The position numbers and the translations under genes were made by a program. A stretch of DNA of 64,000 bases from assembly GCA_030248295.1 (NCBI GenBank), contig JASANH010001707.1, forward strand, positions 1-64,000. The letters are read 5' to 3'. This stretch comes from Mesodorylaimus sp. YZB2_4 (Eukaryota > Nematoda > Enoplea > Dorylaimida > Dorylaimidae). Within the stretch, counting starts at the first letter, position 1; every line of letters begins with the position of its first letter. The notes beneath the pieces are model-generated. The model was not told the origin of the DNA, searched no databases, and saw nothing but the letters and a program-made list of their open reading frames with translations. Shown one piece after another: positions 1 to 40,770 of the stretch.

Positions 1-1224
1 ACCCCTGCCACGACTGAAAACGATTGGGTCCTCGCTGGTCACCAATTTCGTACATTTGCGCTGGATGCGAGAGTGCAGTCGCCCATGATCCTCAACCCGA
101 TGTTAGCCACGGTAGCTGCCCACGATTTGGACACCGATACCGATTCTGCGTATGGATATGGGTCGTGGACGCCCAGGGCGTCAGATCTGCCGCCTTCGCT
201 AGAAGATATTTTGCCAACACGGGCTGCCCTGCGCGAAGAGCAAAGGAAAGAACCAGCCTTGCTGGATATTATCGATGGCCTCAACGGAACGGTCCCTGAA
301 GCGATGGATGCCCGTCGTACGATCACAGCCCAATTGGCTGATTACAAGCTGGATGAAGATGGCACGTTGCTACGTCGTAAACGGCTTCGTGCGCCTGCTC
401 GTCTCGTCTATGTCCCAGTGGTTCCTCGTCGATATCGAAAAATCATTTTCATCAGTCACCACAATGCCCCGGACAAGACGACTGACCACCCAGCTGCTGG
501 GCGAATGCTTACGGTTCTGCGCCCGCTGTATTTTTGGGACACTATGACTTCGGATATCACCCGATGGTGCGCCGCATGCCTGGCATGTAAATTACGCAAG
601 CCCGATTTGGTCAACAGACGACCACCTTTGACGCCGATTCCTGTGCCTGGCACGCCGTTTACCCATTGGGCAGTGGACTCGATGGGTCCGCTCAAAATCA
701 CGAAGAATGGCAATCGATACTTAGTCAATTTTATCGATTTATTCACCAAATTCCCGATCTTGGTCCCAGTGCCTGATCTGTGGGCTCGCACGGTAGCCAA
801 GGTCTTCCTGAACGAAGTCTACCTCGCTCATCCGCAAGTTCAACAGCTTCTGTCTGATAATGGTCCCGAGTATCGAAATCGATTTTTGGCCCACATCTGC
901 TCTGAGCTGCAAGTTCGAAAGATTTTTACGACTCCTTGGCACCCCCAAGGTAATGGCCAAGTCGAACGGCTCAATCAAAGCATCGGCAATAGTATCGCCT
1001 TCAATCTGCAAGATGGCGACGACGAATGGGACACCATGGCTCCTTATACGGCATGTGCGCTGCGTCTTAGCCATTCGACCACCATTGGTATGTCCGCCTA
1101 CGAAGCCGCGTATGGTATCACGCCACAGAAAGATATCGATCGATTACTGGGAACGCCTGTCGAGCCTGGCTCGCCCTCTAAAAGTTCAAGTAAGCCGCTC
1201 AGCTCTTGGCTGCACGTCGCCTGA
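1..1224 (+). CDS. pol: Pol C-terminal fragment: Ty3/gypsy-type integrase
   Basis: The frame is open from base 1, so this is the tail of a larger polyprotein; the ATG at 73 is internal. An H2C2 zinc-binding region (ISHHN ... WCAACLAC) spans about 430-600. It is followed by a DDE catalytic core: D in AVDSMGP near 675, D in LLSDNGPEY near 858, and E in GQVERLN near 962. Spacing and order are those of Ty3/gypsy integrases, which insert the cDNA into the host genome. The frame closes at 1224 with an atypical tail. The expected integrase C-terminal helix (AARRLKFEEIRQRL-like) instead lies in frame 3 from 1194 to about 1331, so a single-base frameshift near 1190 probably separates the two and this copy may be inactive. 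The RNase H and RT portions should lie upstream of the window. Confidence 0.85.
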   Translation, partial: TPATTENDWVLAGHQFRTFALDARVQSPMILNPMLATVAAHDLDTDTDSAYGYGSWTPRASDLPPSLEDILPTRAALREEQRKEPALLDIIDGLNGTVPEAMDARRTITAQLADYKLDEDGTLLRRKRLRAPARLVYVPVVPRRYRKIIFISHHNAPDKTTDHPAAGRMLTVLRPLYFWDTMTSDITRWCAACLACKLRKPDLVNRRPPLTPIPVPGTPFTHWAVDSMGPLKITKNGNRYLVNFIDLFTKFPILVPVPDLWARTVAKVFLNEVYLAHPQVQQLLSDNGPEYRNRFLAHICSELQVRKIFTTPWHPQGNGQVERLNQSIGNSIAFNLQDGDDEWDTMAPYTACALRLSHSTTIGMSAYEAAYGITPQKDIDRLLGTPVEPGSPSKSSSKPLSSWLHVA

Positions 1225-4200
1225 AGTTCGAAGAAATCCGCCAACGATTGCGACAAAGATCCGACTATGCAACAAAAAAGGCATCCCGCCCAAGGTCCTG
1301 GACCTCATTCAAAACCCTCGATTCCCAAAACTGATTTTTCACGGCGTTCACACCGAATTGGTTGCTTTGGGCAACACGACTGGACTCGAAGTACCCATTG
1401 ATAAGGCGCATACGTGGGAAATAGTCGATATTTCGTTAACCAAAACCCCGGTCAGGCCAGATGCCCCGTTAGCCAGTCGTCAACGTGGATGGAGCTACAA
1501 CAAATGGTTTGAAGCCGACTCTGCCATGCCCTTGGCCGTACTCGATGTCATTCGATTTTGGTATGGAGAACATGCGCCGTTGCTTAAACCAGGTGCGATC
1601 AAGACGTTTTTCTATATGTTCTTCGGCGTGGCGTATGGCGGCGAACATCACCATCCACTCAAATGGATTTGGCACTACGGACGACCCGATGCGGACACGC
1701 CATTTGCGTTCACCCACGAGCAACTTCAATACTGCTGCTACGACGGGGCTGCCCCGATGTACTTGTTTTTCGTCATGTCGTTGTTCGCCTCGCATTTGCT
1801 CACGACCGCCTTCGTTCCCCAAGCCTTGCTTGATGCGACTGAAGAAATTCGGAAGCAATTTCACGTAGCTGCCACGGCTCGATTGCCCGTTCCAACCTAT
1901 CGCCAGCAACTCGATTCGTACGGGACCTTGTCCGTTTGCGTCAACTGTTCAGAGCGCCCATGTTACGTCAGTCAGTTAGCGCAAGACGCCGATCGTGAAT
2001 TAGCCGATATTTTGAATTTCGAATCGATTCTGAACGATCAATTGCCAGAACCTCCGCCGTCTGGTTGGTATTATGACGAGCCCATTGACGATAACGAAGA
2101 ACATCCAGTCTACGTCGGCCTTGCTGGAAGAAACGAAGACTCATGGGCAGCAGAATTCGAACGGGGCCAGGCCCGCGCCGAAGCTATGGAAGATATTGCG
2201 ACTGTCACTGCCCCGTCTCAACCCGATCAGCCTCTGGCCTTGCCGGTCGATCCTCGTTATCTTCGCGACCGTCGCGTGGACAGGCATTCGATATTCGACG
2301 ATCTGAATATGATGTACGGTGATTGTAACGTTCAAGTCGCCTACGATCATTTGCGAGATAAAGACGATGGCAAATTCACGCCCAATTATCCACGCAACGC
2401 CAGGCCATTGTCGAAGCCGATCCTGAACAAAGGTCAAACACCCTACGAATTTGCGCACGGCCCTGCCGTTTATTTCATGCAACGTTTGCGTCATGTACTC
2501 GAACATGGGATCGATCCTGCTGATGGCGAATTCTTCTTTCCCACGATTCCGATTCCGTGGCCAAGAATGGACAGAATCCCGCATATCGATCATTTCGATG
2601 AAGCGCCCGAAGGATGGGTTCCGAAGTTGCCGCATGGAACTGCCGATGAAGAACGATCAATGCCTTGCATTCGAAGTTTCGCTCAAGAGTTCCGTCGAAG
2701 AACTAGGCACTTCTTTCGAGAAAACGATGGTCAACCAACCGAGAGAAGACGAGCGGCCTTCGTCAAAGCGGAAGTCAACGAATGGATCGATTGGTACACC
2801 AAGGATCAGTTCAGGACTGCCTTCCCCCGTGGTGAGTCGTTGTCCAATTATCAAAAATGGGTTATTTTCTTGTACGGCTATCACATCATCGCCGTCCAAG
2901 CTCGCCGAAGGTCGACGGCCGCATCGGTTCAGGACCGCAGCGCTGCGTACGTTTTCAATTATTACAAGACCATCGATCTCAGCGATATCAACGCGGCACG
3001 GTCTCAATTGGTCGAAGCGAAAAATCGGGTGAAGCAAGCGATCGCCGAGGTATCTCAAGCCTGTGCGAATCCGAAATTGGCTCGCTATCATCGGTTATTG
3101 GCGAAAATCAACACGTTCTTAACGGGAAAAGAGTACAAAGTCGAAACGCGAACGGTGGTCGGTGGACAAACGTCGTCTGCTCCGCCGCCGCAAGTCACCA
3201 AGCCGCCAGTTCAAACGGCCGATTGGACCCCGTCCTGGACGGAACCGCCCTCAGCCGCCGCGATCGTGGAAAAACAGAAGACATTGGGTATCATGGCCTT
3301 GCCAGGTTGCCGTCCGGTCCCGTTGGATGTGCTGGTCGATCGAATTCCGATTCGCAATTTGCACGTGTCGTACCCGATTTTGATGGACGCGCCAGAATGG
3401 ACGGGCCAGGCCCGCGCTTATGCTTATCGACTGCGTTTGATCGCTCCGGAAGTGTTGCCGCCGTTGGTCTTGCCAAATACGCCCGAAGCCGGCTATCCGT
3501 TCAAAACGCTTGATGAATTTTTGGCCGATTTGAATCGACTCGATCCGAAGTTAGATCCTACGGCCCGGCCGTGTTGTCAAATGCTAGCTGATCAAGTCGA
3601 TTGGTTGTCTAAAGAATTGAAATGGCAAATCGGATGGGAAACGCCCGCGGATCGTGAGAAACGTCTCAGGGACGAACAAACGTTGAAAGAACAACAGCAA
3701 CAGGAGGAAGCCGCGCAATACGAACGAGAGCGGGAATCCGTTTTGAGTCGGTTGGGTGCGCCGTCCAACGTTCGAATTATTCGTCCATCAGCTGCTGCAG
3801 CTGCTAATACTGCTCATGCCGCGTCATCGTCTGCACCGACTGTGCTTCGCTCGACGGAAAATCGCCCGCCTGCGTCGCAGCCAACGTCAAGATCGAGACT
3901 GCAAAGCGTCGTCACCGTCGTCAGACAAGCTCAGGCCATGCCTGCACCACCTGCTCAACCAGTTGCTCCGAGGCCTGCGCCTGTGGAACCACCTACCGCG
4001 CCACCGAAAGTATTGGAAACCGCCCGTTTGTCGATCGATAGTCAAAATCGTCATTATTGGATCAAGCGATCGATGCCAATTTACAAACGGTTGCGAGATG
4101 CCCAATGGCAATGGAACGAATTGAACGCCGAAGAAAAGATCGCCTATCGTTTATTGGCCGATAGTCCACACCCTGACGATACGGAACCGAACAAGGCCTT

Positions 4201-4462
4201 GCCTTTTGTGTTGCCAAAGCACGAATTTCAAGCCAATTTCTTGGGATCCACGTTCGCTGTTACGTTGGAAGCCGTCTACAATCAAATGGTTCTGGAAAGT
4301 GCCCCAGCTACGGCCATGCCGTCTCAGGATATCGCTCAAGCCAGTGCTTCGACTGCGGCTCAAGCTATGGATACGTCTCAACCGCCTATGTTGATCCCGA
4401 CACCTCGTCGTGGTGGTCGTCGCCGTCCGTCTCGTTCGCGTTCGGCTCGACGTGATAAGTGA
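1088..4462 (+). CDS. Long unassigned retroelement ORF downstream of integrase (env position)
   Basis: An uninterrupted frame of more than 1050 codons. Convincing coding sequence starts near 1270; the start shown is the last in-frame ATG before that, overlapping the integrase gene, and is uncertain. I do not recognise the family. The protein has no signal peptide and no clear membrane anchor, though short hydrophobic stretches occur at about 1605-1640 and 1755-1810. The middle is charged and helical. A Q/E-rich stretch (about 3670-3735) precedes a Pro/Ala-rich linker (about 3780-4010). The C-terminus is Arg/Ser-rich and basic (GRRRPSRSRSARR), suggesting nucleic-acid binding. The env position would suggest an envelope, but the composition fits a structural or Gag-like protein better; this is inference. 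A decayed homologue lies on the minus strand at 41.8-43.5 kb, which supports it as a genuine component of an element family. Confidence 0.7.
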   Translation, partial: VCPPTKPRMVSRHRKISIDYWERLSSLARPLKVQVSRSALGCTSPEVRRNPPTIATKIRLCNKKGIPPKVLDLIQNPRFPKLIFHGVHTELVALGNTTGLEVPIDKAHTWEIVDISLTKTPVRPDAPLASRQRGWSYNKWFEADSAMPLAVLDVIRFWYGEHAPLLKPGAIKTFFYMFFGVAYGGEHHHPLKWIWHYGRPDADTPFAFTHEQLQYCCYDGAAPMYLFFVMSLFASHLLTTAFVPQALLDATEEIRKQFHVAATARLPVPTYRQQLDSYGTLSVCVNCSERPCYVSQLAQDADRELADILNFESILNDQLPEPPPSGWYYDEPIDDNEEHPVYVGLAGRNEDSWAAEFERGQARAEAMEDIATVTAPSQPDQPLALPVDPRYLRDRRVDRHSIFDDLNMMYGDCNVQVAYDHLRDKDDGKFTPNYPRNARPLSKPILNKGQTPYEFAHGPAVYFMQRLRHVLEHGIDPADGEFFFPTIPIPWPRMDRIPHIDHFDEAPEGWVPKLPHGTADEERSMPCIRSFAQEFRRRTRHFFRENDGQPTERRRAAFVKAEVNEWIDWYTKDQFRTAFPRGESLSNYQKWVIFLYGYHIIAVQARRRSTAASVQDRSAAYVFNYYKTIDLSDINAARSQLVEAKNRVKQAIAEVSQACANPKLARYHRLLAKINTFLTGKEYKVETRTVVGGQTSSAPPPQVTKPPVQTADWTPSWTEPPSAAAIVEKQKTLGIMALPGCRPVPLDVLVDRIPIRNLHVSYPILMDAPEWTGQARAYAYRLRLIAPEVLPPLVLPNTPEAGYPFKTLDEFLADLNRLDPKLDPTARPCCQMLADQVDWLSKELKWQIGWETPADREKRLRDEQTLKEQQQQEEAAQYERERESVLSRLGAPSNVRIIRPSAAAAANTAHAASSSAPTVLRSTENRPPASQPTSRSRLQSVVTVVRQAQAMPAPPAQPVAPRPAPVEPPTAPPKVLETARLSIDSQNRHYWIKRSMPIYKRLRDAQWQWNELNAEEKIAYRLLADSPHPDDTEPNKALPFVLPKHEFQANFLGSTFAVTLEAVYNQMVLESAPATAMPSQDIAQASASTAAQAMDTSQPPMLIPTPRRGGRRRPSRSRSARRDK

Positions 4463-11067: not shown

Positions 11068-14000
11068 ATGGCAAGATTGATATTAATCCATTACATTGTA
11101 CATGCTGGAATCGTGCTCAATCAGATCCAGACGATGCACGCGGAACAGGGTGGATGCAAAGACAACGGTGACGATTGTAAGTAAAACTTGATGCTTGCCT
11201 ACTGACGGGTGAATATTTTTAGCAGGGAATGGAGGCTGCGAAAAGGCTCAGGCTGCTGCAGTCGGCAACAACAACTGTTATAAATTGGTCCGAACAAGCA
11301 CTACCTGGAAATTAGGATTCGATATCTGCGGAAACATTGCGAGCGCAAATAAATTCGGTGAGCATCTTTTTGTTTGGGCATTATTAATTTTTAGGCAAAC
11401 AGGAGTGCGTATCAGCATGGCTCAACGAGAAAATTCTTCCGCAGAATCAGTTCTTTTTCAGGATATGGCCGTATAGCCACGTTTACCGATGACGCGCTAT
11501 ATGACATGATAATAAGTGAAGTAATAAAGGTGGACGGCGCCCAAGGACCTGTTTTGGCGTGGATTGGAGCGTATTCGCCCGCCAAAAGTACCTCACTGCG
11601 CGATTATTGTTGGAAGACAAGCCAAGGGACTGATGGATCCCAAGTGACTTCGGATGAAATATACGTCAAGCCCTTGACCCAACCAGACACCTTCGGCTTG
11701 CTAATCAACACATCGTCGCCACGAACGTTTTATGCTGATTTCTACGATGGGCCTTTGCACGCAGTTGTCTGCGAATTCGGTGAGGCTAAGCGAGTATGTT
11801 AACTTGAATCAGTTTGAATGAAAGATCGATTCACTTTAATAGGTTGCAATAGTACAGTCCCGACCGCGGCGTGTTCCTCTGGTCCTGCTAAGACTAATGG
11901 ATGCAGCACACAATACGCTTGCAATTTGAAATCGAACGCCACGTTTCCTTCAACAACTATGAGCACGACGGGCCGAGCCACCACAAGTCTCGGCACCACA
12001 ACAACATTAAAAACAGCCGCGCCCACATCGTCTACGATTGGCTTTATTACATCTACAAGTGACACAACTTCGTCTTTAAAAGGCGGAACTACGACCACGC
12101 CTGCCACAACGACGTCCACGAGAGACTCGACCACGTCTGTTAGCGGCACAACTACATCCCTCAACGGCATAAGCACGTCTTTCAGCAGCACAGGCTACAT
12201 AAGTGGGTCAACAACATCGACGCCAGTCACATCAACGTCCGCACGTGGCTTAAGCGCATCTACTAGTGACAAAACTACATCTTCAAGCATCGGAACCACG
12301 CTTGCAACCGTTGAGACCATATCAACGAGTGGCCGAGCTGCGCCCAAGATCGTTACTACGACGTTAGCTGCCAGTTTAAGCACAGTTACGATTGACACAG
12401 GTACATCACCTAGTAGCAAAAACAAGTCTTTTAGCAGCGTAAGCACGTCCACGAGTGGCTCAACAACATCGACTCGAATCACACCAGCGTCCGCGAGTGG
12501 CTTAACCGCATCTGCAATTGTCAAAACTGCGTCTTCAGGCGTCGAAACTACACCTACGACCGTGAAAATCATGTCCACGAGTGACATAGCCAGCCCCAAT
12601 GTTGTTACAAACAAGTTGACTATCGCCTTAGGAACATTTACAAGTGGCACAAGTACAGCTGCTAGTGGCGTGAGTACATCTAGAGCTAGTGCAACCACAA
12701 CGACGCGTATCACATCCGCACATCCACGGCGAGCTCAACGACATCTGCAAGCGACACAGCTTTGTCCTCGAAAGGTGGAGCCACGCCCACGCTGGCCGCT
12801 GGGTCGGCCGAATTAACAATAAACACAACCACGTCCACGAGGGGCATACCAAAGCCCATGCGTACATCAACCACGTTACCGAAAGGCGAAATCGCACATA
12901 CAAGCGACAGAACTACATCTCTCAGTGGCATCACCGCCTCCTCGAGCAACTCAGCCTCATTCACAAGTCGGCTAACGAAGTTTTCGAGTAGCGCAGCTGC
13001 ATCCACAAATGGCTTGACCACCGCTAAAACTGACATAGTGACGTTTGCAAATGACCAAAACATGCTCTTCACCAATACACTGGAGCCAGTGAGCGACGCA
13101 TCCATGTCAGATACGTCCAAAGTTGGCACTACCGTATCCACTAGCCGCCTAAAGACGTCGCAAAGCACTACAACTTCGCTCGCATTTAAACAAATTTCTT
13201 CCTCCATTTCTGTCACCATTTCAGAGATTGGCACAACAACTTTTCAGAGTGGCTTAAGCGCTAAATTGCCAACGTCGTCCGTGAAGATGTCCAGTAGCAA
13301 TAGACAAACAGTGATGAGCTCGACGAATGACCGTTCAACTATTCAAGCTATTGGAACGACGGCAAATATGATGATCGAGGCGATTTCGAAAGATGCGTCG
13401 CCACCGGCCATGGTTGCTACTGCTCGTATTGTAACAACAGGTTCTGTTAGCCAAACAAGTCAGAGCAGAGACGCGACCACCGCCTCATATTCCCCAGATA
13501 CCTTAGTTAGCTTAGTGACAATGCCGTCTCTTTCAACAACAGAATCGGCCTCAGCAAACCAACCATTCAGCTCTATCGATGTATTAACTTCAAATGCATC
13601 AGTCACCCCATCTTCCACATATCAGCTGCCGCAGTCATCAGAGGCAGAGACTACTTTGACTCCTCACACCCAATCATTCACTTCAACAAGTGCCCCTATG
13701 TCTAATGTCTACATGGATACGTCAAGCGAAATCAGCTCTACGCCTCTACTAGGTTCAACTACAAGCGCTGCTTCGTCAAATCTTTTCATCACCAATCCAG
13801 CGTCGACTACAGGAAGATCTATAGCTAGGATACCGTCATCTAACATTGGCGACGGTTACACTTCGGTTTCAGCGTCACGCTCCACAACGTCAGAAATCGA
13901 AGAGAACAACACTTCCAGAAATGATTTATCGTTAATTTCAACAAGCACTTTGCCCAATCTCTCACTCTCTCCCACTCAGTCAGCGGCGACGGTAGTAACA

Positions 14001-17000
14001 ACTACGGCCTCTACATTTACTCTACCTCCTACGACTACATGGCTCAGCTCTCAGCCGACCAAAACAGCAATGCTAACATCCACTCGACAAACATCTTCAG
14101 TCACAGTTGTCCCGGCGACGAATAGTATCAAAGAATCAAGTTCATCTAGCCAAAATACAATGGCGCAGTCTACGCTGAGCCCTTTAACCTCGACGGTCGA
14201 CTTGTTTTCAACAGACACCAGCCTTGCACCGAGCTCACAGGTTACGACGCTACTTATCGTTGGCAAGGAAGACACATCAAGCGCTTCATCGATAATGTTC
14301 GCCAGCTCATCGAGTCCAATCGAGGAGACCACTTCTCAGCACATATCTACGCCTACATTGCCAGCTGCACTTTCTTTCAGCGCGCCAACCTCCTCGTCTC
14401 TCTTGTTAAGTACTACCCACCTTCAACTAAGCCAGCCAGTCTTATCAACGGGGCTATCTCCTGTGTCAGCATTGGAAATAAGCACACCTTCAGTGAGTAC
14501 CTCTGACGATAAGTTTAGTCCCAGCCCTTCAATATGGAGCACAGCCGAGTCCTCAAAAAAAGCATTTATTAGCACTGCGACCGAGCAATCCGAGTCAAGC
14601 GCTTCGATCTCGTCGTCCTTTGCAAACGATCTCACCTCGCCAAGACCTTCTTTCACGTCCTCACCAGCCTCCGTGACCTCTCCCATGACCACTGCAAACA
14701 CTCTAGTAATCAATACCCAGCTAACAAGTGCGCTTGCCCCATCTTCGACAGATCCTGAACCATCTTTTTCCTCATCGACTCTGCCGCTAATATTCACCAG
14801 TCCTACAACATTAAATGGCGACCATGAACTGTTGTCATCAGGGACAGCTTCGACAGGTTCTAGCCTCATTGGCTCGCCGACATCAGCAATCACATCGGAA
14901 TTGACACAAATCCCGAGTGTTAGCACGTCGCCGCAGTATACAAGCCCGCAAACAACGATTGACACCGAGTCGATGTCCATACTCGTCACGACAACTACTG
15001 CTTCTACGCGCCAGCCTGAGGTCACGAGTTCTAAAACATTGTTGGTCACTTCGATATCACAAACACCACCAGCAGAAGTTGCTATCAATTTGACCCCAAT
15101 AAATCTTCCAGGATCATCACAATCGCCATCCTCATCCACATGGGCGCCGTCAGTGCTGTTATCAACTTTGTCACCCACCAGTTTATCTTTTTCACCGAGT
15201 ATAACTGACCATACCGCCCCAACCGGACAATTACCGACATTAAAAAATATCAGAAGTACAATTATGAGCTTCAGCCAGATATCAAAATTTCAAGCTTCAA
15301 CTAGCAATCATTATCAAAAATTAGTCGAGGACGCTGATAGACACCAATATACTTCTGCTCTCACTCCAATCGATGATCATGCAGTCGCCCACAGGCCCGT
15401 CGAACCGACGTCTGGTGATCGAGTGTCCACAACAAGCATCTCTATCTTGTCTAGTTCGCTCTCCGCAATTAGCAGCACGGACTTTCGAGGCGCATCCCAA
15501 ACTTTGTTGGACATCTTGACTTCGAAAAAACAGAGTACTGATGATTTGGACGAAGCATACAAAAATCAACGACAAGGACCCATTCCTCTGACTAGTACAA
15601 AGAATTCGATCGACATCGCGGATACCGCCTCCACACCGTCATTGTTATATTCTTCGATTTCAAGCGGTGCAGTTATAAAAAATTCAAAAGAAGAAAGCTT
15701 TCCAATGAAGGACCTCCTCTTCGAAAGCTCTTCATCCTCTGAACCGAGCAGCACCAGGCACAATGGTATCATGACAACTACTCCCACTTCTGCTCCGGTC
15801 ACAGAAGGCAAGACATTTGCTGCAAGTCGCTCTATTATCTTTCTTGAAAATTCGGAGAGCGGGTCACTGAAACAGCAGAGCGAAACTGCTGCTTTCGCCC
15901 AATCAGTCGACGATGCTGCAGGAACTCTAGCAGACCATCGAGACCATGAACAAAGCTCAGGCACACAACAACAGACATTTTCGCACCCAGAAACAACCAC
16001 GAGGGTTAATAGGGGACCCAAAGTAATCGATTTCAAAGAATTTGGAGTAACAAAAGAGAATACAGGGGTTAACGCAGGAATGACCCTCAACCTCAATCAG
16101 AAGTCATTTTCAAAGACTATCACGCCACTATCAGGCAAAGTCGAAAATTCTGCCATCCTCGCTGGTCTCAAACAGGCCACAGCGGACACAGATCAGGTGA
16201 TTGTTTCAAACACAAAGTCTTTTGCCGACACTCAATCGCCGGACGCGCAGGCTTTATCTGCCACGGAGCAATCATCGAATAGAGCTGCTGATCGGAGCAC
16301 TGTGCAACTGATCGCGCCGAAGCAACCGATTAATTCGATTCTGACTACAAAGTCTTCAAGTTTGGACCCACTCGAAAACTCAGTGCCTCAAGTGACTAAC
16401 AACGGATATGACATTGCAGGCCAAGGAGATTCGAAAACCAGCAGTAGCAAGGGTTCAAGTCTTATACTGTCAAGCAATAATTACGAAGCCAGTAAAACCT
16501 TTTCGAGCGACTCTTTATTTACTATCAGAAGTTTGAGTGACCTTAAAAGCTCCATCGAAACTAGGAGCGAGGCCCTTGCTTCTTCCGATATGTCAAGCAA
16601 AATGACGACTGAAAAACTAGCGATTTCATTTCATTCAAGCGCTGCTACACTTCATCCAGAACAAGAGTCAAGAGAGCGAGATTTCTTTAAGAGCCCTAAA
16701 AAAATCCTAGACTTGGCCACTGTTGACCTTGCACCAACATTAATTGGTTATTCGGCCACGCAATCTTTGCCATCAAACTTTGTTGATTTGCTGCAAAAAT
16801 TCACTAATCGTCTTCCAAGTCAGCAACGACTGGCAGATGCCACGAGAGACGCTTCTGCTGTCACTGTATCGCCGATGGGTGACCATGTGTCTGAGCGCAT
16901 TACAGGTAAAAGCCAATGATTTATGTTGAAGCATCTTTGCATTCTTGGTGTTTTAGAAGAGCCATACTCCAAAAACTGCGTGCTGTCCGAATGGAGTGAG

Positions 17001-18300
17001 TACAGCTCATGCACGGCCACATGTGGCGAAGGCGCAGTACGAACCAGGTCAAGATTAATCACAGTAACTGAACAAGGGCGTTGTCCAGGAGCGGAAAAAG
17101 AAACCGTACCATGTCTGACACCGCCATGCGTGAGTGTGCCGTGTGGTTGTTATAAGCTTATTTTAAAAAGCATACTAAGGCTTCTTTTCCAGAGTCCAAT
17201 GACGCGAACGGAGCGTTTTGTCAGAAGCATCACGATGAATATCGGATGCGCATGGCTTTTGGGGGCCCTAAGCTTGTCCATCATTGGGGCTGCTTTCCGA
17301 AGGTACTTCAACTTAGGAGACTTTGACTACTGTACCTGTAGCCAATTTACTGTGCATTTAGAAACAAGCACTACCTTCCGGTCCTACAACTCAACACCGA
17401 CATAAGTCTGCTGGCGGCTCATATTATCGTAATAGCATTAGCTGAACGGAACGACAGCAAATTTAGTCATGTAAGGAGTGTTTTATTGATTTTACAACTT
17501 TTGCAAAAACTTTTTTTATAGGACCTTTGCAAAGTATCCGCCTTAGCCTTGCAGTATTTTTATTTGGTTGCATTCTCCTTCCAGTTTATGGAAGCTCTTT
17601 TTATTTACTGCACTTTGACAGCTGTTTTGATTGAAAGCAAATCAATTATCGGAATCAAGACCACGTTATCTCTGTGCTGGGGTAAAACTCTTTTCATGCA
17701 AGCATGATTGAAACAGAAATGTGACTCTTTTAGGCATACCGATAATTATCGTCGGCTGCACTGCTCTATCATCTTATAACTTTCTTACGTCAAACTTTTC
17801 GTAAGCCGATTTGGCCAGATCTTTCCAATGCATTAAGCCCTCGAAATTTGATTTTGTAGATGCTGGATTAATTTGGGAAACAATGTCATGCTCGCAACGT
17901 TTGTTCCGGTCGCGCTTCTGGGATGCCCGACTGTTATTCTTCTGGAAGCAGCAGGAAACGAGAATCCAGGAGCGCCAAAGGATCATGTTGTCGCATGCAG
18001 GTAGGTCCGCCTTTCGAAGAGAAACTGCTTACCATCACTTGCATCAGAGTCCTTTTTAGGGTTGCTCGCGGCGGTCTTATGGTAGTGTTTGGAGTCGAAT
18101 TTGCTGCGTGGTTCCTCGGCTCATCGGCTTTGTTTTACCAAAGCTTTTCTCTCTTCTCTGTCGTCTTCATTCTGAACGTGACTCTGGGCGTACTCATCTT
18201 CGGATACCACTTTTTCTCTGATCAAAAGGTGGGACAGCGTTTTGCCAGTTTCGCCTCCTTTCAAAAAAAATTCGTCAGCGAGGCGGATGCTTTCAGGTGA
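11068..18300 (+). CDS. Adhesion-GPCR-like receptor: signal, CTLD, mucin stalk, TSP1, 7TM
   Basis: Reconstructed from GT-AG introns with consistent phases. Exons: 11068-11176, 11223-11357, 11462-11779, 11843-16905, 16957-17129, 17193-17302, 17362-17470, 17522-17681, 17734-17800, 17860-18000, 18060-18300; about 2208 residues. Exon 1 gives a weak signal peptide. Exons 2-3 encode a divergent C-type lectin-like domain (about residues 37-187; NNNCYKL, RIATFTDD, final VVCEF). Exon 4 is a Ser/Thr-rich mucin-like stalk of about 1690 residues. Exon 5 is a TSP1 repeat with the O-fucosylation motif CTATCG. Exons 6-11 carry seven membrane helices typical of adhesion GPCRs: RNKHYLPVLQLNTDISLL (loop 1/TM2), LQYFYLVAFSFQFMEALF (TM3), CWINLG (loop 2), FILNVTLGVLIFGYHFF (TM7). 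No GAIN/GPS module is visible. Exon 4 needs one frame change near 12720. The lectin domain may bind glycans; ligand unknown. Confidence 0.85.
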
Positions 18301-22608: not shown

Positions 22609-24199
22609 ATGGCACACTTATCGTTGCTTGCTGATGTCATTATTGCAAGCTTAGTACTTATATCATGTATGTCACAGTTTTCACATAAATCTAGCCCTCT
22701 GGGGGCTAGATTTGTAAAATGCTTCAATTTCTTCTGTGTAATTTTTTTTCTAGACGCGGCAGTTCATGATCGAGCGGCTTGTCAAGCACTTGGCGGTCTC
22801 ATGCACGGCGGTCGATGTTTCTTCTTTTTGAAAACTACTCATTCGTGGAATGATTCATGGGCTCTATGTGGCCAAGAAGGAGCAAGAATGGCTCACATTC
22901 AAACTAAGATGGAACATGACGCTGTGCACGACTGGATAACGGTAAGATAATATTTTAATCGATATTTTTCAAAAACCAATTTCTTTGGGCATTTTAGTCC
23001 TTTTTTGTCACGAAAAGTATATTTTGGCTTCCCTTGCAACGTGATAATAGTTTTGATGGTCCGCTATCATGCGCAACGACAGAAAATAACACGTACTGGT
23101 ATGATGACGCGGTAACGCGAAACGTTCAACTGCGTGGGGCCAACACGTGGATAAAACCTCGTGTTTGCGATGAAAATGATACAATGCCGGGAGAGTTCTG
23201 TTACATCTGGCGAGTCGACACTGATATGTCAAAGCTGTGCGACGACAAATGTCATTCTAATCGTCTGCCATTGTGTCAGTTCACAAGTAAGAGCCTGGAA
23301 ACTTCCTACTGCATGTATGCTCATTTATTGTTTTTTATAAGCCATGATTCGCTGCAAAATGTGCAAAGAAATTTCCCTAGTACCCAGCTTATTAATGTCC
23401 TCTACAACCGAGGGGTGGAGAATTCTTACACAGCAGCAAAAATCATTTCTTATACATATGTCCAACCAAATTACAGTCTTTTGGATGTAAAATAATGGGT
23501 GTTTGGACGACAGCTATCCATGCCATTCAGCTAAATTCAGACTGACACAGCTAACTAAAACTAAACAATCTTTCAAACCACTATGCCATTACAAAACACC
23601 TCGTGTTGTCAGATGCATAGGTGCAGGGTATTTGGCAGGTCACACCTTCAATTTTCTGCTTACTTAAGATATCAAGCTATGGAAGCAACATGTGAAACTC
23701 TGTACAGTATAGTCTCACCTTTAACTAAGTCCAAGGTACTTGTTTCTTGATCAATTTGGCATATTGTTTGTCGCGAAGACATTAGTACTTGTTGTATAAC
23801 TGATGACTTTAGCTGATAAGCAGTGCTCAAGGCTTTTGATAGTTCTGTTTGCTGAAGGCGCGGCAATTATTCACTCAGCCATTTGAAATCCAAGTATGTG
23901 ATTAGATTTGACCATGTAGTTTGGTTTTTATTTCATTTTCAGCGCCTGAAATTAGCTTCAACAAGTCCTCCGTTTGCATAACAAGCCCGCCAGCAGAAAC
24001 CTTCCGTGCATGTCAACCTCAAGACTGCGCGAACGCATGCGGTCAGAAGCTGTGGTGTCGCAGTTTCAATTTCATGCAAGATCTATCGGGCTGCACGAAT
24101 CACACGTGCAATTTATTCAGCTGGTCAGCCAGAGATGCCCCCTCGACCAAGCCTGTAGCGTTAGTGGAGGGCTGCATTCAGTACGATTACAATCCATAG
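22609..24199 (+). CDS. Secreted C-type lectin-like + PAN/apple protein (copy B, intact)
   Basis: Four exons: 22609-22666, 22754-22941, 22998-23286, 23943-24199. Phases match throughout and give 263 residues. Exon 1 encodes a signal peptide (MAHLSLLADVIIASLVLIS). Exons 2-3 encode a C-type lectin-like domain: CQALGGLMHGGRCFFF, HIQTKMEHDAVHDWI, FWLPLQRD, NTYWYDD, then the last pair of cysteines ending PLCQF. Canonical calcium/sugar motifs (EPN, QPD, WND) are not seen, so classical sugar binding is doubtful. Exon 4 is a cysteine-rich PAN/apple-like domain (VCITSPPAETF, CANACGQKLWCRSFNF, GCTNHTCNLFSW) ending GCIQYDYNP. Product is probably secreted and extracellular; partner unknown. Closest relative in the window is copy D. 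Confidence 0.85.
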
Positions 24200-28346: not shown

Positions 28347-29584
28347 ATGTTTCATCAGTCTCGTTGTCGTATTGTCAAGAGTTTTGTCAGTGAGCGGACT
28401 AAAGAAATGGATCCTGCAATTACTTCCCAGCGAAACAAGGAAAAGTTTAGCCACGATTGCTACGCATATGTGAAGGACAAGCGGAGCAAGAATGGTCTCT
28501 TTACATTCTGGCGATGTGATCAGAAGTATGCCGGCGTGCTATGCGCAAAACATGCAACCGAATTCGGAAAGGGTAAGATGCACCAGCGATGCCAGAGAAT
28601 CGTCAAGCGATCGTGATTCCAGAAGGGTATTGCCGTTACGAATATAGCCCAGGTGCTTTCGAGAACTTCCTTATAGCTGATTCTGGCCCTGAACCTGAAC
28701 GGGTGCTCATTTTTGGTCGAGAATATAACGAAAAGTGGAGTGGTGAAATGCGCGAAGTATACATGGATGGCACGTTTCTGCTGGCACCACCACTATTTTC
28801 GCAGATATTTGTGCTTCTCGCTCGCCGTGGAGGCTTTGTGCTCCCCATTCTCTTCTGTCTCTTGCCGAACAAGACGACTGAGACATACGTCAAGATGTTC
28901 CAGGTGATCAAAGCGGCGTGACCCTTATTTAATCCTGAGGCGATCAATTTCGATTACAAAATCGCTGTTCACCAAGCCATTCAAGCTGAGTTTCCAGATG
29001 CTGAAATCAGAGGTTGCTTGTTTCATCTTGTACAAAAGCTCCGAAAACATCTGGCTTCATCGCACTTGCTGCAGAGATACAATGCCGATGCCGAATTCGC
29101 TCTGCAAGCCAAGATGATTACATCAGTGGCGTTTGTCATTCACGCCCTTACTGAGCTGGAAGAGCATCTGCTGCCAGAACTTGAACCAATCATCTGCTGG
29201 CTCACGAACAGCTATGTCGGGCGCCTTCGAAACAATGGAACCCGCGCGCTACCACTGTTTCCCTATTCAATTTGGAACGTCCATCAGCGCACTTTACTTG
29301 GTCAAGATCGCACCAACAACTTCGCAGAGGCTTCGCATCGCAAGCTTCAGCTGTCGTTTGGAGTGGCTCATCCATCACTGTGGAAGTTTATTGATGGATT
29401 AAAGAAAACGCAGAAAGTATGTGATGCTGATTATGAGCGGTACGTTGCGGGACACCAACCTCCTCACAAGCGGGCTCGGTATGAAGAAGCTGACGAACGT
29501 ATTCTAAGAAAAGTACGCTCCTACGACCGAGCCAACATCATCGAGTTCCTCCGTGGCGTTTCTCACAATTATCAGATGGATTAG
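28347..29584 (+). pseudogene. MULE transposase with FLYWCH-like N-terminus, broken
   Basis: The first frame (28408-28616) carries an FLYWCH-type zinc-binding region (YAYVKDKRSKNGLFTFWRC...CAKH). The transposase continues in another frame from about 28589, so a frameshift lies near 28590-28610. The DDE catalytic core is recognisable: the first D in YMDGTF near 28764, the second in NFDYKIA near 28951, the E in NFAEASHRKLQ near 29322, and the family GC.FH motif (RGCLFHLVQ) near 29010. A TGA at 28919-28921 interrupts the core where MULEs have continuous sequence. The enzyme would cut and move the element; this copy is inactive by at least two lesions. Confidence 0.85.
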
Positions 29585-32551: not shown

Positions 32552-34038
32552 ATGGCATACTTCTCATTACTTGCTGATTTAATTATTGCAAGTTTATTAG
32601 TTACATCGAGTACGTTACAGTTTCCCCACGAACCATATTCTAGAGTCACCTTGACTAAATACCCCTGTGTCTGCTTCGTAACTTTTGCCATTTCTATGTA
32701 GACGCGGCGGTCCATGATCGAGCAGCTTGTCAAGCACTTAAGGGTCTCATGCACGGCGGTCGATGTTTTTTCTTTCCGGAGGGTACTTACTCGTGGAATG
32801 ATTCATGGGCTGCATGCGGCCAAGAAGGAACAGGAATGGCTCACATTCAAACAAAACTGGAGCACAACGATGTGCACGACTGGATAAAGGTACGATACTA
32901 GTTTAATCTATATTTTTCAGAAACGGAGAGTTTTAGGCCTTTTTAGACAAATCATGAAGCCAACACAAGAGTTTGGCTTCCGTTACGACGTGATAACAGG
33001 TTTGATGGTGCGCTATCATGCGCAACGACAGAAAAAAATACATACTGGTATGATGACGCCGCAACGCGCAATGTCAAGTTGCGGGGGGGCAACACGTGGA
33101 TAAAATCTCACATTTGCGATGAAAATGATACAGCGCTTGGACAATTTTGTTACATGTGGCTTCTCGACAATGGTTTGTCAAGGCTAGGCGACAGCAATTG
33201 TAATGTTCAACGCCCGCCATTGTGTCAGTTCACAAGTAAGAGCCTAGACATTTTCTGCTGTACGTATCTGGGTCCTAATTCTATCGTTTTTAAAGAGATA
33301 TAATTCGCTACAATTTTGCTTTGACTAATTCCTCAGCGGATCCGCTAAGGATTTAATCAGTATTCCGCATATTCAGCGTATTCATTTCTTTACTACCGTG
33401 TAATTGAGAAATCTCTCACTCTCACATTTTTTGAAATATAAAAGTTACACCTATTTGGAAATAAAATATGCTGTTGTTTGGATGGCAGCTTTCCATGCCA
33501 GATCACAACACCTCTTATTGTCAGACGCGATGGTGTGGATATGTCTAATGACACCTTCAGTCACTCAAAGTTTACTGCTTCGCAACAAACTTCGCTCCTT
33601 TTGGCGCGAAGGCATTAGTATTTATTGTTTTTTGCGTGCAGGCCCTGATAGTATAGTCTGGTATTCGATGGTTTTGTATTTTGAATGCAAGAAAAGAATA
33701 TTTTCTCTGGAGTGTGATATCCTCACGATGCAGTTTCTTTTTTGTTTTCAGCACCTGAACTGAGCTTCAACAGGTCTGCCGTCTGCATAACAAGCCCGCC
33801 GGCAGAAACCTTCACTGCATGCCAACCTCAAGATTGCGCGAATGCGTGTGGCAAGAAGTTGTGGTGTCGCAGTTTCAACTTCATGCAAGATCTATCGGGC
33901 TGCACGAATCACACGTGCAATTTATTCAGTTGGTCAGCCAGAGATTCCCCCGCGGTTGAGCCTGTATCTTTGGTAGAGGGCTGCATTCAGTACGACTACA
34001 ATCCAAAATACGTCAGCCGGAAGGGTTTTAATTTGTAA
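32552..34038 (+). CDS. Secreted C-type lectin-like + PAN/apple protein (copy D, intact)
   Basis: Four exons: 32552-32609, 32702-32889, 32947-33235 and 33752-34038. The first three have exactly the lengths of gene B (58, 188, 289 nt) with matching phases; the product is 273 residues. Exon 1 is a signal peptide (MAYFSLLADLIIASLLV). The CTLD has CQALKGLMHGGRCFFF, NTYWYDD and PPLCQF; classical EPN/QPD sugar-binding motifs are not seen. The PAN exon reads VCITSPPAETFTAC, KLWCRSFNF, GCTNHTCNLFSW. The family stop codon after YDYNP is changed to a lysine codon, so the protein runs ten residues further (KYVSRKGFNL). Probably secreted. Together with B it forms a tandem pair about 10 kb apart. Confidence 0.85.
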
Positions 34039-36155: not shown

Positions 36156-37292
36156 ATGGGAAATAATACTTCTAGCACTTACCCCTGGAATCTGTCCTCT
36201 GAATACTTTTATGTGGCTCATCATTTCGAAGTCTTTGTGTACCATTACCTTGCCATAACCCACTTCACAGTAGGGTGTTTTGGACACCTGATTTTACTGC
36301 CTGATAAAATTCGGGACTTTAGACGCTGACCACTGCTGACCAGTTGGCTAGACGCCTCCAATATTTTGCACATAGCTGTCTTTTGCACCTAGGAACATAT
36401 TACAATTTTTGGTTTCTCAAAGTTCGACTTAACGGTTGGCGATGTTCCCTTGTGAGCGGGCCTACGGATATCAGGTGATCTACTCTATCAGCAAGACTCT
36501 TGTGATTGTTGTCTTCGGAATGTTCCTGCAAGCCGTCGTAATTTTGAGTGTAGATTCTTATAAATATACTGTACTTGGAAATCAAAATTACGTGGCCATG
36601 TTCACATTCGGGTATATTTTTTATGCCTTCCGCTTGACATCAATAATTTGTCCATTATTACCAGCTGTGGCCATGGCAGCTGACAGAGTCTTCGCTATTT
36701 GGAGACCGATCAAGTATAAAAATATAAACCATGCAGTACACCGATTATGCTCAGCCCTGATTTGCCTGCTGATCGGTTTATTTGCAGTGAGTATATATTT
36801 TTTACGAATAAGGTAGTTTGGATGGAAGATTTTGGTGTTTTTTGGATCGAAATGGATCGGAAATTCGATGAACAAAGTGCGATTGGCAACATTTGTGAGC
36901 AAGCCCATTTATATTCTCGGGTTGGAGGGTTAACACTATTACTGTGCCTAAATTTCTTGATGATCGCGTTGTTCACAAAACGGCCAGTTAAGATGGATGC
37001 AATACAAGGGAATAAGGATTAATCTTCTGGTCCTTCGTCAAATCGAGCCAAGGAGAGGACATTACTTTTGATCAATATTTATCAAGCCTGTGCCATGCCA
37101 CTCAATCAAATGCCACTTGTCATGTGGGTCCACTTACTAGGGCGTGTTGCATACGAGTGAAAAGAATGTCACAAGTTGGTCGTTGGCCCTGTGGCCGACG
37201 CTATGGTCATGACCACAGACACACTGGACTTCTTTATAGTGATTGTTATCAATAGGGAAATAAGGAGGCTGGTCCGCGATGTCATGCCTTAA
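36156..37292 (+). pseudogene. 7TM receptor relic (copy 1)
   Basis: Collinear with the intact single-exon receptors at 38405-39448 and 51622-52659 over the whole length. It starts MGNNTSSTYPW and shows TM1 (FEVFVYHYLA, GCFGHLILL), TM2 (ERAYGYQVIYSISK), TM3 with the D-R-V motif (AADRVFAIWRP), TM5 (LYSRVGGLTLLL), TM6 (INIYQACAM) and TM7 (TLDFFIVIVIN). Lesions: unrelated sequence replaces the codons after LILL (about 36300-36440), a frameshift lies near 36790-36815, a TAA is at about 37020, and a TGA at 37158-37160 stands where the intact copy has tryptophan. Not functional. Confidence 0.85.
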
Positions 37293-38404: not shown

Positions 38405-39448
38405 TCATACAAAAACCTGGCTTATGTCTTGACGTCTCGAACACTTGGGGACCACATCGTTAACCAGTCGTCTCATTTTTGTGTTGATCGCGATCACAAT
38501 AAAAAAGTCTAATATGTCTGTGACCATGACGCTTGCATCAGCTAAAGACGCAATAACTGACTTGTAACATTCTGCCGATTCAAATGTGATCCGACCGAAA
38601 AAATGAATATAAATAACATGCGGCATTTGATTGAGTAGCATACCACACGCCTGGTAAATATTGATCCACAATAGTGCTCTTTCCTTTGCTCGACTTGACG
38701 CGAAGCCTGGAGATGATTCCTTGTATCCTCTCAGTACATCAAGTTTAACCGACCGTTTCTTGAAAAATTTTATCATGAAGCAATTAAGAAGCAGCAGAAG
38801 TATCAACCCACCAACTCGAGAATATAAACGGACATGCTCACAAATTTTACTGATAATATGATTTTTAAAAAACTGCCAGTCCACTTCGATCATATAAAGA
38901 CGTAATTCCTGCGACCACACCACCTTGGCTGGATATAAGTAAATAATCCCACCAACTAAACCAGTTAGAAGACAAATCAACGTGCCACATAATTGGTGTA
39001 CTGTGTGGTTTATTTTTCTATGAGCGAACGGTTTGATGATGGCAAAGACTCTGTCAGCTGCCATAGCCACAGCTAACAGCAAGGAGCAAATGATGAAAGA
39101 TATGTGCAGGCCGGAGAAAATATACCCGAATATGAACATGGCCACATAATTCTGGTTAATCCAGGTGTATTTGTACGAATCTATACTCTGGATGACGACG
39201 GCTTGTAGAAACATACCGAATACGAAAATCTCGATAGTTTTGCTGATGGAGTAGATCACCTGATATCCGTAGGCTCGTTCAGTTTTCGACTGTTTATAGA
39301 AAGCAGCCAATAAAATCAGGTGCCCTGAGCATCCGACTGTAACGTATATTGCAGCCAGGTAATGGTACACAAAGACTTCCAGATAATGAGCGAAAAAAGA
39401 TCCAGAGGGCAGAGTCAATAAACAGGTGGTAGACGTGGTATTCGGCAT
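38405..39448 (-). CDS. Rhodopsin-family-like 7TM receptor (copy 2, intact)
   Basis: Single exon, 347 residues, starting MPNTTSTTCLL. The N-terminus has an NTTS glycosylation sequon. Seven hydrophobic segments lie at about residues 30-52, 68-92, 105-135, 150-175, 215-240, 268-292 and 305-330. The end of TM3 reads AADRVFAIIKP, a variant of the class A DRYxAIxxP motif. TM7 has DILDFFIVIAINTKMRRL in place of a standard NPxxY. An N-linked GCSGHLILL replaces the usual GN of TM1. It is about 60-70% similar to the receptor at 51.6 kb by eye. Probably a plasma-membrane receptor; ligand unknown. Small tandem single-exon receptors of this kind are often chemosensory or peptide receptors, but nothing here decides. 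Confidence 0.85.
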   Translation of the reverse strand: MPNTTSTTCLLTLPSGSFFAHYLEVFVYHYLAAIYVTVGCSGHLILLAAFYKQSKTERAYGYQVIYSISKTIEIFVFGMFLQAVVIQSIDSYKYTWINQNYVAMFIFGYIFSGLHISFIICSLLLAVAMAADRVFAIIKPFAHRKINHTVHQLCGTLICLLTGLVGGIIYLYPAKVVWSQELRLYMIEVDWQFFKNHIISKICEHVRLYSRVGGLILLLLLNCFMIKFFKKRSVKLDVLRGYKESSPGFASSRAKERALLWINIYQACGMLLNQMPHVIYIHFFGRITFESAECYKSVIASLADASVMVTDILDFFIVIAINTKMRRLVNDVVPKCSRRQDISQVFV

Positions 39449-40770
39449 GATGACTGTGACGATTAGAAATCAAGTAGATTGCTGTAGAGATGGAACGACA
39501 GTACCTGCACTATTAAATGTGTTTGCCAGCGACTCGAGGGAGCTGATAAATTCGACTACGAGTGTATTGAAATAAAAAAGCAATATATACGTATTAAGCC
39601 ACTTAATGTCGTGTTTTTGGGATAGATTACCACAGAATCCCTAAATTTTAGAATGTACAGCTGTACCAGCTTGTCTCGCAAGAGCCAATGGTTGCGAGAC
39701 CGCCTGTAGTAAGGAGCAAAGTAGTACCCCGTCAGGCGGGAAAGCATATGACACTCGATGGCTGCCCTTTCCGCCGCGTTCAGCGCTTACACAGAAAGAG
39801 CAGTTTTGCTGCTTCCAATCAATTTTTCAAGCGTCTCTTTCCACTTACCTCTCGTTCATTTTCTCGACGAACGTCGATGCTCGGTGCGACCTGAAGCGAA
39901 CTCTTAATTACTTTAAATGGACCCGAGAAAATGACAAATATAGCATTTGGAGAGTATATCCTAAAGTAATTTTTATAGGTGCATTTTCACTTGACAAACC
40001 TGACAGGCTTCGAGAAAAGATCCTTACATTGGATCTTCTAGAAGCTCTGTCTAATCAACTCGGAGCTTGAAATTGATAAAGCACGAAGTTCGCTGCAGTT
40101 TTTTCCCTCAACACAGTCAAGATCGGAAAGGTTGGGTGGGGCTCAGTCTGGTGCAAGCGCAGATTCACTTCAACCCATTCAAGAAATCCCCTCGGGAATC
40201 ATACCCGACATTTTCTCATTCGAATAAGTGGATGGACTCAGGGTCTTTTTAAGCACAAGGCTTTTGATGAGAAAAGGAAAACGCGATAAGAACTAGTCCT
40301 AGTCGACTCGATTAGCACGACGTACCTTTGTTCAGTGAAGCATATTTAGTGCTTCTATTTTTATCGCACAAGATCTGTGATCTTAATTTTTCATATTGAT
40401 AAATGATGCGAAAGGGCTGTTATTATTTCTATGAAACTATCAAAGTGACTAGGTACAGTTTCTTGGACATCCTGGGGCGAGTCCAAAATTGATTTTCCTC
40501 CTCACATTTGCACACTAGCTCAATGCTGATAAAGACGATTGGAAATCGTTGCATCTCTGACATAATGGCTCCGACATAAGGCTTCGATGAGACGCCACGT
40601 TTCATTACACAAAGCACTATCTGATCGTCATCTAGCATAAGCAATAAGGCGCCTATACCAAAAAACTAGCCGCTTCCAACAGTCAAAAGTCATCGAAAGA
40701 AATCGTAAGCGCTATCGCGCTCACCTTAGGGCTAGAGGTTAAAACCATGAGCGAGGTAAAGAAACCAGGT
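39449..40770. other. Intergenic, no supported gene
   Basis: Short frames only. Upstream sequence of receptor copy 2 (read on the minus strand from 39449) should hold its promoter; no element is recognisable. Confidence 0.45.

Follow-up and report, generated by a model that had tools for sequence, protein, structure and literature searches.

A nematode family of adhesion-GPCR-like genes joins a lectin-like head, a Ser/Thr-rich stalk and one TSP1 repeat to a 7TM with no detected GAIN or GPS

The window, that is, the whole stretch of 64,000 nucleotides analysed from the nematode Mesodorylaimus sp. YZB2_4 (contig JASANH010001707.1), contains on its forward strand, at 11068-18300, a gene that we rebuilt with the 11 exons of the original prediction, all of its introns being GT-AG introns of 46-104 bp (Table 1). 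In the product, a leader is followed by a divergent C-type-lectin-like domain (CTLD), a Cys-free stalk, one TSP1 repeat and a 7TM. The acceptor of exon 2 could also lie 3 bases further on, and a start of exon 3 at 11395 was discarded, as it runs into a stop. Exon 3 matches the family profile at 8.3e-43, a profile that itself includes the window sequence, and the TSP_1 place in the own-genome search covers 16986-17129. The reading phases, described earlier as consistent throughout, are interrupted in exon 4: at ~12,711-12,717 the Ser/Thr-rich reading drops out of one frame and continues in another, a break that the first reading overlooked. As introns that could take its place, all frame-restoring GT-AG pairs between 12400 and 13000 that span 35-400 bp were enumerated; every one of them lacks a convincing pyrimidine-rich acceptor. 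At 12670-12689, a 20-bp GT..AG stretch fits arithmetically; it is below the shortest intron here, and the upstream Ser/Thr-repeat reading continues beyond it. Either an assembly indel or a recent mutation may account for the break of the window copy.

Table 1. Features of the rebuilt gene model (positions in the window).
Feature	Position	Strand	Content and evidence
Exon 1	11068..11176	+	Start codon, hydrophobic signal-peptide-like leader (from sequence); then donor GTAAGT
Exon 2	11223..11357	+	CTLD first third (CYKL ... W..GF..C); family profile 1.7e-11
Exon 3	11462..11779	+	CTLD remainder (GRIATF ... WIGA ... CW ... VVCEF)
Exon 4	11843..16905	+	Small Cys module behind CTLD, then Ser/Thr-rich Cys-free stalk
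Overlap of two stalk reading frames	12690..12816	+	Frame break ~12,711-12,717
Exon 5	16957..17129	+	TSP1 repeat; Pfam TSP_1 3.2e-8
Exon 6	17193..17302	+	TM1 and conserved xPMTxxE junction; gene model
Exon 7	17362..17470	+	TM2 and ICL1; gene model, family profile
Exon 8	17522..17681	+	TM3, TM4 start; gene model, family profile
Exon 9	17734..17800	+	End of TM4, part of ECL2; gene model, family profile
Exon 10	17860..18000	+	TM5, Cys-Trp pair of ECL2; gene model, family profile
Exon 11	18060..18300	+	TM6, TM7, short tail, stop codon; gene model, family profile

By the Cys, W, WIG and CE pattern of its profile, the head is identified as a divergent C-type-lectin-like domain, as had been proposed. 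Specifically, a CTLD profile built from 13 family heads retrieves PDB entries of C-type lectins (best 2.6e-4); searched by itself, the window head gives nothing in Pfam at E<=1, and Pfam Lectin_C matches two of the 13 heads (best 0.0076). Sugar-binding C-type lectins carry the Ca2+/sugar motifs EPN or QPD, plus WND. Neither EPN nor WND occurs in any of the 13 heads and QPD occurs in one, namely the window copy; because these motifs are mostly absent, sugar binding by the heads is doubtful, and ligand binding by the CTLD is putative.

Past the small Cys module, counted from its last cysteine, the window stalk contains no Cys and 39% Ser/Thr over 1,662 residues, a sum across both sides of the frame break, so that the long Ser/Thr-rich stalk first described stands, with its length revised from about 1690. 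The stalks of the paralogs C62B-D are likewise Cys-free and Ser/Thr-rich behind a Cys module, those of C217, C151, C5 and C63 contain a few Cys, and the stalks of the compared paralogs align locally at 29-40%. O-glycosylation of the stalk is predicted, and if the rod were fully extended, the mucin value of 2.5 A per residue cited in PMC10687090 would give it a length of ~0.4 um.

Behind the stalk, Pfam recovers the single TSP1 repeat and the class B2-type 7TM of the original prediction (7tm_2, 5.5e-11), and 7tm_2 also matches 10 of 10 aligned copies. The 7TM family profile reaches ADGRD1 at 5e-14, ADGRL3 at 2.7e-12 and ADGRG4 at 1.2e-8, with a best secretin-class match of 8.8e-6; judged by these profile scores, the 7TM groups with adhesion GPCRs rather than with secretin receptors. 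HormR/HRM, the mark of secretin class B1, finds no match in the product or in the 10 aligned copies. The large modular ectodomain of adhesion GPCRs is present here in the form of CTLD, stalk and TSP1. The T of the TM1 motif SIT..GC (T72) lies 14 positions from the last TSP1 cysteine (C58), close to the ~15 residues claimed, and the TM1 hydropathy core begins at residue 75. Across the aligned junctions, exactly one residue leads from the last TSP1 Cys to PM in nine of 10 copies (three in C151), and this near-constant length fits rigid coupling.

A GAIN domain with a tethered agonist is treated as a hallmark of adhesion GPCRs. As claimed at the outset, the spliced window product has no Pfam match to GPS or GAIN, and a hidden fold of this kind, the stated danger to that claim, did not emerge from the HMM search of the product, in which the window stalk offers no Cys to form a GPS. 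None of the 12 GPS places in the genome lies within 14 kb upstream of any of 41 family loci (among the matches listed), and none of its six GAIN places is at a family locus. A TxFAVLM-like tethered agonist was not found at the junction of the aligned copies, which reads xPMTxxE there. GPS receptors do exist in the same genome, including two latrophilin-like ones with HLTTFAVLM ahead of TM1; these serve as an internal control, in which the first stachel T precedes the T of FIT..GC by 25 positions. Since GPS, GAIN and Stachel are absent, we infer signalling without GPS cleavage and Stachel, in agreement with the original prediction.

Sequence comparison across the genome indicates that the CTLD-stalk-TSP1-7TM architecture is real and belongs to a gene family with dozens of related receptor-like genes rather than to a single odd gene. 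Among the matches listed, 41 loci have a TM6-7 match, with TSP1 upstream at 30, one or more CTLDs upstream at 23 and both at 21, the latter being linked by position and strand only and not as gene models. All of these counts are lower bounds, because there are further genome matches beyond those listed. The rows entering the count were selected by eye: 41 covering the TM6-7 exon, 35 TM1-exon rows, 31 TSP1 places, 59 of 69 CTLD rows (the remaining 10 hold further head exons) and all 12 GPS rows. Long matches of low identity (20-28%) to other 7tm_2 genes, among them C130, C24, C103, C278, C688, C885, C58 and C72, were left out, as were rows such as C441, C78 and C22:270191 for absence of the TM6-7 part. 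That 21 of 41 listed loci have both CTLD and TSP1 ahead of the TM6-7 exon is counted as beyond chance; at one of the 41, C83:322677, the paired TSP1 8 kb upstream may belong to another gene. The 20 listed loci without a detected CTLD or TSP1 reflect in part the limits of the search, and C2, C9, C22, C260 and C76:215115, with none of the upstream parts, may represent other 7tm_2 genes. At C62, four tandem genes repeat the order CTLD - stalk - TSP1 - 7TM, C62A being degraded. Values of dN/dS of 0.08-0.22 in eight of 12 comparisons (those with finite dS) indicate purifying selection on the family.

The frame break could mark the window copy as a recent pseudogene of the family whose own architecture is functionless, and other copies (C589a, C589b, C62A and C63) are visibly degraded or frame-broken. 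We consider this unlikely: every splice site of the model is intact and all 7TM exons are open, 1,398 codons are open past the break, dN/dS against C589a is 0.12-0.19, and an assembly indel is equally possible. The position of the break in the stalk, between both halves, together with a frame shift in the C63 stalk, could also be read as two adjacent genes that were duplicated as a unit, one for a secreted CTLD-mucin and the other for a TSP1-7TM receptor, a possibility raised with the original prediction. The open frames of the paralogs make it very improbable. In C62B, C62C and C62D, unbroken stalk frames of 1,862, 2,014 and 1,675 codons start in CTLD exon 3 or immediately after it and reach to within ~50 bp of the TSP1 exon, where the exact splice sites are not fixed; that of C62C begins inside CTLD exon 3 and contains the stalk. 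One 1,524-codon frame of C63 covers the stalk and extends into TSP1 itself, the shift lying further upstream, and two C83 TSP1 places sit within open frames of 1,649 and 1,394 codons. Both parts, moreover, recur jointly at the 21 listed loci. C217 and C151 have single long stalk frames, and the C589a and C63 stalks are split over four and two frames, respectively; because the window, C589a and C63 stalks are broken, only C62B-D, with C217 and C151, retain an unbroken stalk frame among the copies whose head was read.

Our preferred reading, to which we assign a probability of roughly 40%, is that the window gene is a member of this family and a likely cleavage-independent contact or force sensor, acting from CTLD, rod and TSP1 into TM1. 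Because no self-cutting domain is recognisable, contact or pull would likely be sensed by a route unlike that of known relatives: a ligand bound by the lectin-like head would pull on the rod, predicted to be O-glycosylated, which would transmit the force to the TSP1 domain, and this domain directly to TM1. Surface display of the receptor and G-protein coupling of its 7TM are predicted. Force sensing is proposed by analogy, and a soluble ligand would suit this anatomy equally.

Such a ligand (a peptide, glycan or matrix fragment) might drive the receptor through TSP1 or the 7TM pocket, with head and rod merely capturing or concentrating it. Hormones of secretin receptors bind the ectodomain, with the hormone domain right ahead of TM1, a position that the single small Cys-rich domain adjoining TM1 resembles here; the 7TM profile also reaches secretin-class receptors, albeit more weakly, and expansion with divergent ectodomains is common among chemoreceptors. 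However, HormR has no match, the 7TM is nearer to adhesion receptors, and the retention of stalk frames of 1,000-2,000 codons in distant paralogs is left unexplained, which makes a soluble ligand somewhat unlikely as the driver. Cleavage outside a GPS, for example shedding of the stalk followed by signalling of the TSP1-7TM remnant, draws on the frequent proteolysis of long Ser/Thr stalks, and the C-terminal third of the window stalk, being poorer in Ser/Thr and richer in charge, is likely less shielded. Against this, no Pfam domain, SEA or other, matches the stalk (12690-16904) at E<=1, and we judge such cleavage to be quite unlikely.

The proposed cleavage-independent sensing by the family can be set against several known systems. 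The BAI receptors (ADGRB1-3), which have several TSP1 repeats, also place TSP1 on an adhesion 7TM; the window family differs in its one TSP1, in lacking HormR and GAIN and in its added CTLD and long stalk. As described in PMC13322242, BAIs carry hormone-binding (HBD) and GAIN domains, and neuronal functions of BAI3 are reported to be independent of its GAIN domain or tethered agonist. ADGRG4 (GPR112), proposed as a shear or force sensor, similarly has a head, in this case pentraxin-like, that a giant mucin-like stalk links to an adhesion 7TM, but it has HRM, GAIN and Stachel, to which the account in PMC10687090 hands the force. By contrast, the window family has TSP1 directly on TM1, a CTLD head and dozens of copies. 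ADGRA1 (GPR123), named in PMC8421042 as the sole adhesion GPCR without a GAIN domain, shares this lack; no ectodomain modules are given for it there, and it has neither a lectin head nor a stalk or TSP1. Amphioxus adhesion GPCRs include members with Lectin C domains in the N-terminus, like the window family, but many have a GPS, and the order CTLD - long stalk - TSP1 - 7TM is not described in the available text of PMC2246102. The GPS is also absent from some sponge and sea squirt adhesion GPCRs (12 of 40 sponge receptors lack it and 21 of 30 in Ciona are reported with it, according to PMC4302439 and PMC2396169); the sponge receptors described there, however, have short N-termini and are perhaps incomplete models, whereas the window family has a huge ectodomain and many copies. 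Across the open-access PMC papers searched, no family is described with the order CTLD - stalk - TSP1 - 7TM, in keeping with the earlier statement that no named family was known to have it.

Within UniRef and EukProt entries, which include animals, a protein search found no relative among 3460 candidates for a 333-residue piece or among 6002 for alignment A2, and two among 3254 for the long tail, both of which have TSP1 but no 7tm_2 among their precomputed domains; the search requires shared 5-residue words and missed distant adhesion receptors as well. Viral contigs yielded no relatives among 36 pattern matches, and these negative protein and viral searches are no proof of absence in other animals.

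Whether the tethered agonist generally drives adhesion GPCRs in the body is described as an open question in PMC13322242. The family provides a natural, expanded case in which the whole GAIN apparatus is gone, the giant ectodomain is kept and canonical latrophilin-like genes occur in the same genome, and hence a clean test object for cleavage-free coupling of an ectodomain to a B2-type 7TM. More tentatively, at somewhat less than even odds, the family may form a repertoire of new architecture, with diversified heads on mucin rods, one TSP1 and a common 7TM, in which ectodomain-TM1 coupling would be direct because GAIN, GPS and Stachel have been lost, and whose function would be comparable to that of lineage-specific repertoires for chemoreception or innate recognition. 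Different heads would then feed one common output, and variable heads on a conserved 7TM resemble a recognition repertoire that belongs to neither the known chemoreceptor nor the known immune families. Heads diverge more than 7TMs in all six pairs compared, as in C62B/C62C (59% vs 84%).

Reconstruction from the sequence gave the window gene 11 exons (11068-18300, forward strand), with intervening introns (46-104 bp) of the GT-AG type. Its product begins with a hydrophobic leader and a head of roughly 150 residues; a short cysteine module then leads into a Ser/Thr-rich stalk, which is followed by one TSP1 repeat, a seven-transmembrane unit (7TM) and a tail of about 30 residues. Kyte-Doolittle windows show seven hydrophobic segments. 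Pfam recognised 7tm_2 (5.5e-11), TSP_1 (3.2e-8) and TSP1_spondin (1.9e-9, slightly below its own cut-off), but matched neither the head nor the stalk behind a frame break at E<=1. The eleven-exon model of the original prediction, joining a C-type-lectin-like domain (CTLD), stalk, TSP1 and 7TM, was thus recovered, its CTLD through a family profile rather than Pfam. The consistent phases claimed for it fail at one point: the first stalk frame extends to ~12,717 and a second takes over from ~12,711, both being open across 12690-12816, and no good candidate for an intron as the cause was found. The break may be a true mutation or stem from an indel in the assembly; behind it, 1,398 codons are open and contain no cysteine.

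By its sequence, the window gene belongs to a gene family and is not a singleton in its genome (145 Mb, 1,067 contigs), where it sits on a contig of 68,986 bp (C406). Contig C62 bears four tandem genes (C62A-D), each with CTLD, stalk, TSP1 and 7TM; the first is degraded, and the others have uninterrupted stalk frames of 1,862 (C62B), 2,014 (C62C, opening within CTLD exon 3) and 1,675 codons (C62D). On contig C589, one copy (C589a) has its stalk split over four overlapping frames and the other (C589b) is degraded, with no head detected. More distant copies named by contig share the plan; their open frames are 1,263 (C217), 1,600 (C151), 1,524 (C63) and 1,056 codons (C39) long. In C63, this frame continues into TSP1, and the upstream stalk lies in a different frame of 685 codons, adjoined by a CTLD truncated where the examined stretch ends; in C151 and C39, stalk and TSP1 exons are linked only through a longer inferred intron. 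C5:1067738-1079500 combines TSP1-7TM with a Ser/Thr-rich frame of 1,920 codons and no CTLD detected in the 4.7 kb upstream, possibly representing a headless member.

Among the matches listed, at least 41 loci match the TM6-7 exon. The TM1 exon is matched at 34 of the 41, TSP1 at 30, at least one CTLD (up to 6 within 14 kb) at 23, both TSP1 and CTLD at 21, and a GPS within 14 kb upstream at none; five loci without any upstream part may be other 7tm_2 genes. Genome-wide, GPS was found at 12 places at E<=1 (9 above the curated cut-off), seven of them adjoining a 7tm_2 place (C58, C72, C130, C249, C16, C2 and C1), and GAIN at 6 places, none at a family locus. The genome's own GPS and GAIN places therefore provide a same-genome positive control for their absence from the family. 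At C39:492000-508000 and other C39 and C83 loci, 2 to 6 CTLD exons lie upstream of a single TSP1-7TM unit. These exons may all serve a single receptor with several heads, be used as alternative heads, or belong to separate lectin genes; the second option, if true, would be a striking route to diversification.

The junction between TSP1 and TM1 is short and nearly constant. Specifically, the T of SIT..GC in TM1 of the window product stands 14 positions behind the last TSP1 cysteine, in keeping with the ~15 residues originally claimed, and the TSP1-TM1 gap is 24-70 bp in 26 of 29 match pairs (98, 234 and 723 bp in the remaining three). The interval holds a motif, xPMTxxE (PMS in C62B and C62C, Q for E in C63, xPLT for xPMT in one C83 copy). 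Across 10 aligned copies, P, M and the TM1 core MxIGCxW are invariant, and one residue separates Cys from PM in nine (three in C151). A Stachel-like motif (the tethered agonist behind a GPS) was looked for at the family junction and none was found, nor is there room for a GAIN domain, which bears out the predicted lack of GAIN/GPS. Two latrophilin-like genes of this genome do carry the Stachel HL/TTFAVLM, its first T lying 25 positions ahead of the T in the aligned TM1 motif FIT..GC. A TSP1-7TM profile built from the 10 copies matched ADGRD1 (5e-14), ADGRL3 (2.7e-12), ADGRE5 (2.3e-9) and ADGRG4 (1.2e-8) ahead of the top secretin-class receptor (8.8e-6), agreeing, like 7tm_2, with the proposed class B2-type 7TM.

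Pfam misses the window head taken singly because it is too divergent; Lectin_C matched 2 of 13 family heads (best 0.0076). A profile of these 13 heads, run against PDB sequences, found C-type lectins and snaclecs (best E 2.6e-4; 71 matches up to E 10), and the best 60 of the 71 bear names that we take to be those of proteins with CTLDs. Among classical sugar motifs, EPN and WND occur in 0/13 heads and QPD in the window head only. The head is therefore a CTLD, with doubtful sugar binding.

Values of dN/dS of 0.08-0.22 for heads and 7TM (8 of 12 comparisons, those with finite dS) mean that the proteins are under purifying selection. Head identity is lower than 7TM identity in all six pairs (C62B/C62C, 59% vs 84%; C589a/C62D, 50% vs 82%; window gene/C62D, 50% vs 75%; window gene/C62C, 51% vs 63%; C217/C151, 58% vs 64%; window gene/C589a, 71% vs 75%), a contrast that fits either a greater age of the heads or local homogenisation within the 7TM part. 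In C62B/C62C and C589a/C62D, head dS is about three times that of the 7TM (1.5-1.8 vs 0.47-0.57, rough values near saturation); with introns, the C62B/C62C TSP1-7TM blocks are 81-87% identical and the CTLD exons 70-75%. In these two pairs, the TSP1-7TM part is thus more similar, and lower in dS, than the head and stalk are, which may reflect gene conversion of the signalling half; the pattern is missing in window gene/C589a (head dS 1.07 vs 1.33).

Passages of earlier surveys describe Lectin C domains in amphioxus adhesion GPCRs (PMC2246102), GPS missing in 12/40 sponge (PMC4302439) and present in 21/30 Ciona receptors (PMC2396169), ADGRA1 without GAIN (PMC8421042), and GAIN in nearly all choanoflagellate adhesion GPCRs (PMC12716839). 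Our literature search found no described family with CTLD, giant stalk and single TSP1 directly on an adhesion-type 7TM, as originally supposed, and protein database searches with family sequences found no relative with a 7TM. Under strict membership, the family does not count as adhesion GPCRs because GAIN, GPS and Stachel are all missing, its 7TM being nearest to the adhesion kind.

Domain order, junction and the lack of a cleavage apparatus are shown by the sequence, and a mechanical mode of action can be envisioned. The stalk would be O-glycosylated and stiff; with the per-residue pitch of 2.5 A given in PMC10687090, this rod of 1,662 residues would reach ~0.4 um at most. A head bound to a surface at the rod's distance could pull on TSP1, which, at its short, near-constant distance from TM1, could displace TM1 or form a cap over the extracellular loops. 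The main rival is that a soluble ligand drives the receptor. For the mechanical reading, the closest precedent proposed for rod and head is ADGRG4, although there the force goes to a GAIN domain; BAI3 is reported to need neither its GAIN domain nor the tethered agonist for its work in neurons, but to require its G-protein activity (PMC13322242). The many heads on one 7TM kind suggest a recognition repertoire, which might be directed at partners, prey, microbes or conspecifics.

The window holds further features (table). Its two receptor-like intronless frames are 65% identical over 343 residues, with no Pfam match at E<=0.01. Elsewhere in the genome, COX1 occurs at 15 places (C73, C273, C741 and others), one nearly full length with ten in-frame TGA codons and the others partial; these may be mitochondrial sequence or nuclear copies.

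Further features of the window
Feature	Position	Strand	Details
Retroelement integrase and MULE transposase match	1-1221 and 28922-29581	+	rve, Integrase_H2C2; MULE transposase match below cut-off
Open frame	815-4459		1,215 codons; no Pfam match
Reading similar to the CTLD-like gene at 32788-33231	22998-23492	+	
Second CTLD-like gene family	32788-33231	+	Lectin_C E 0.087; passes cut-off only together with frame neighbours
Frame fragment	36433-36813	+	Weak Srbc chemoreceptor match, below cut-off
Receptor-like intronless frame	38408-39469	-	~350 codons
Receptor-like intronless frame	51607-52656	+	~350 codons
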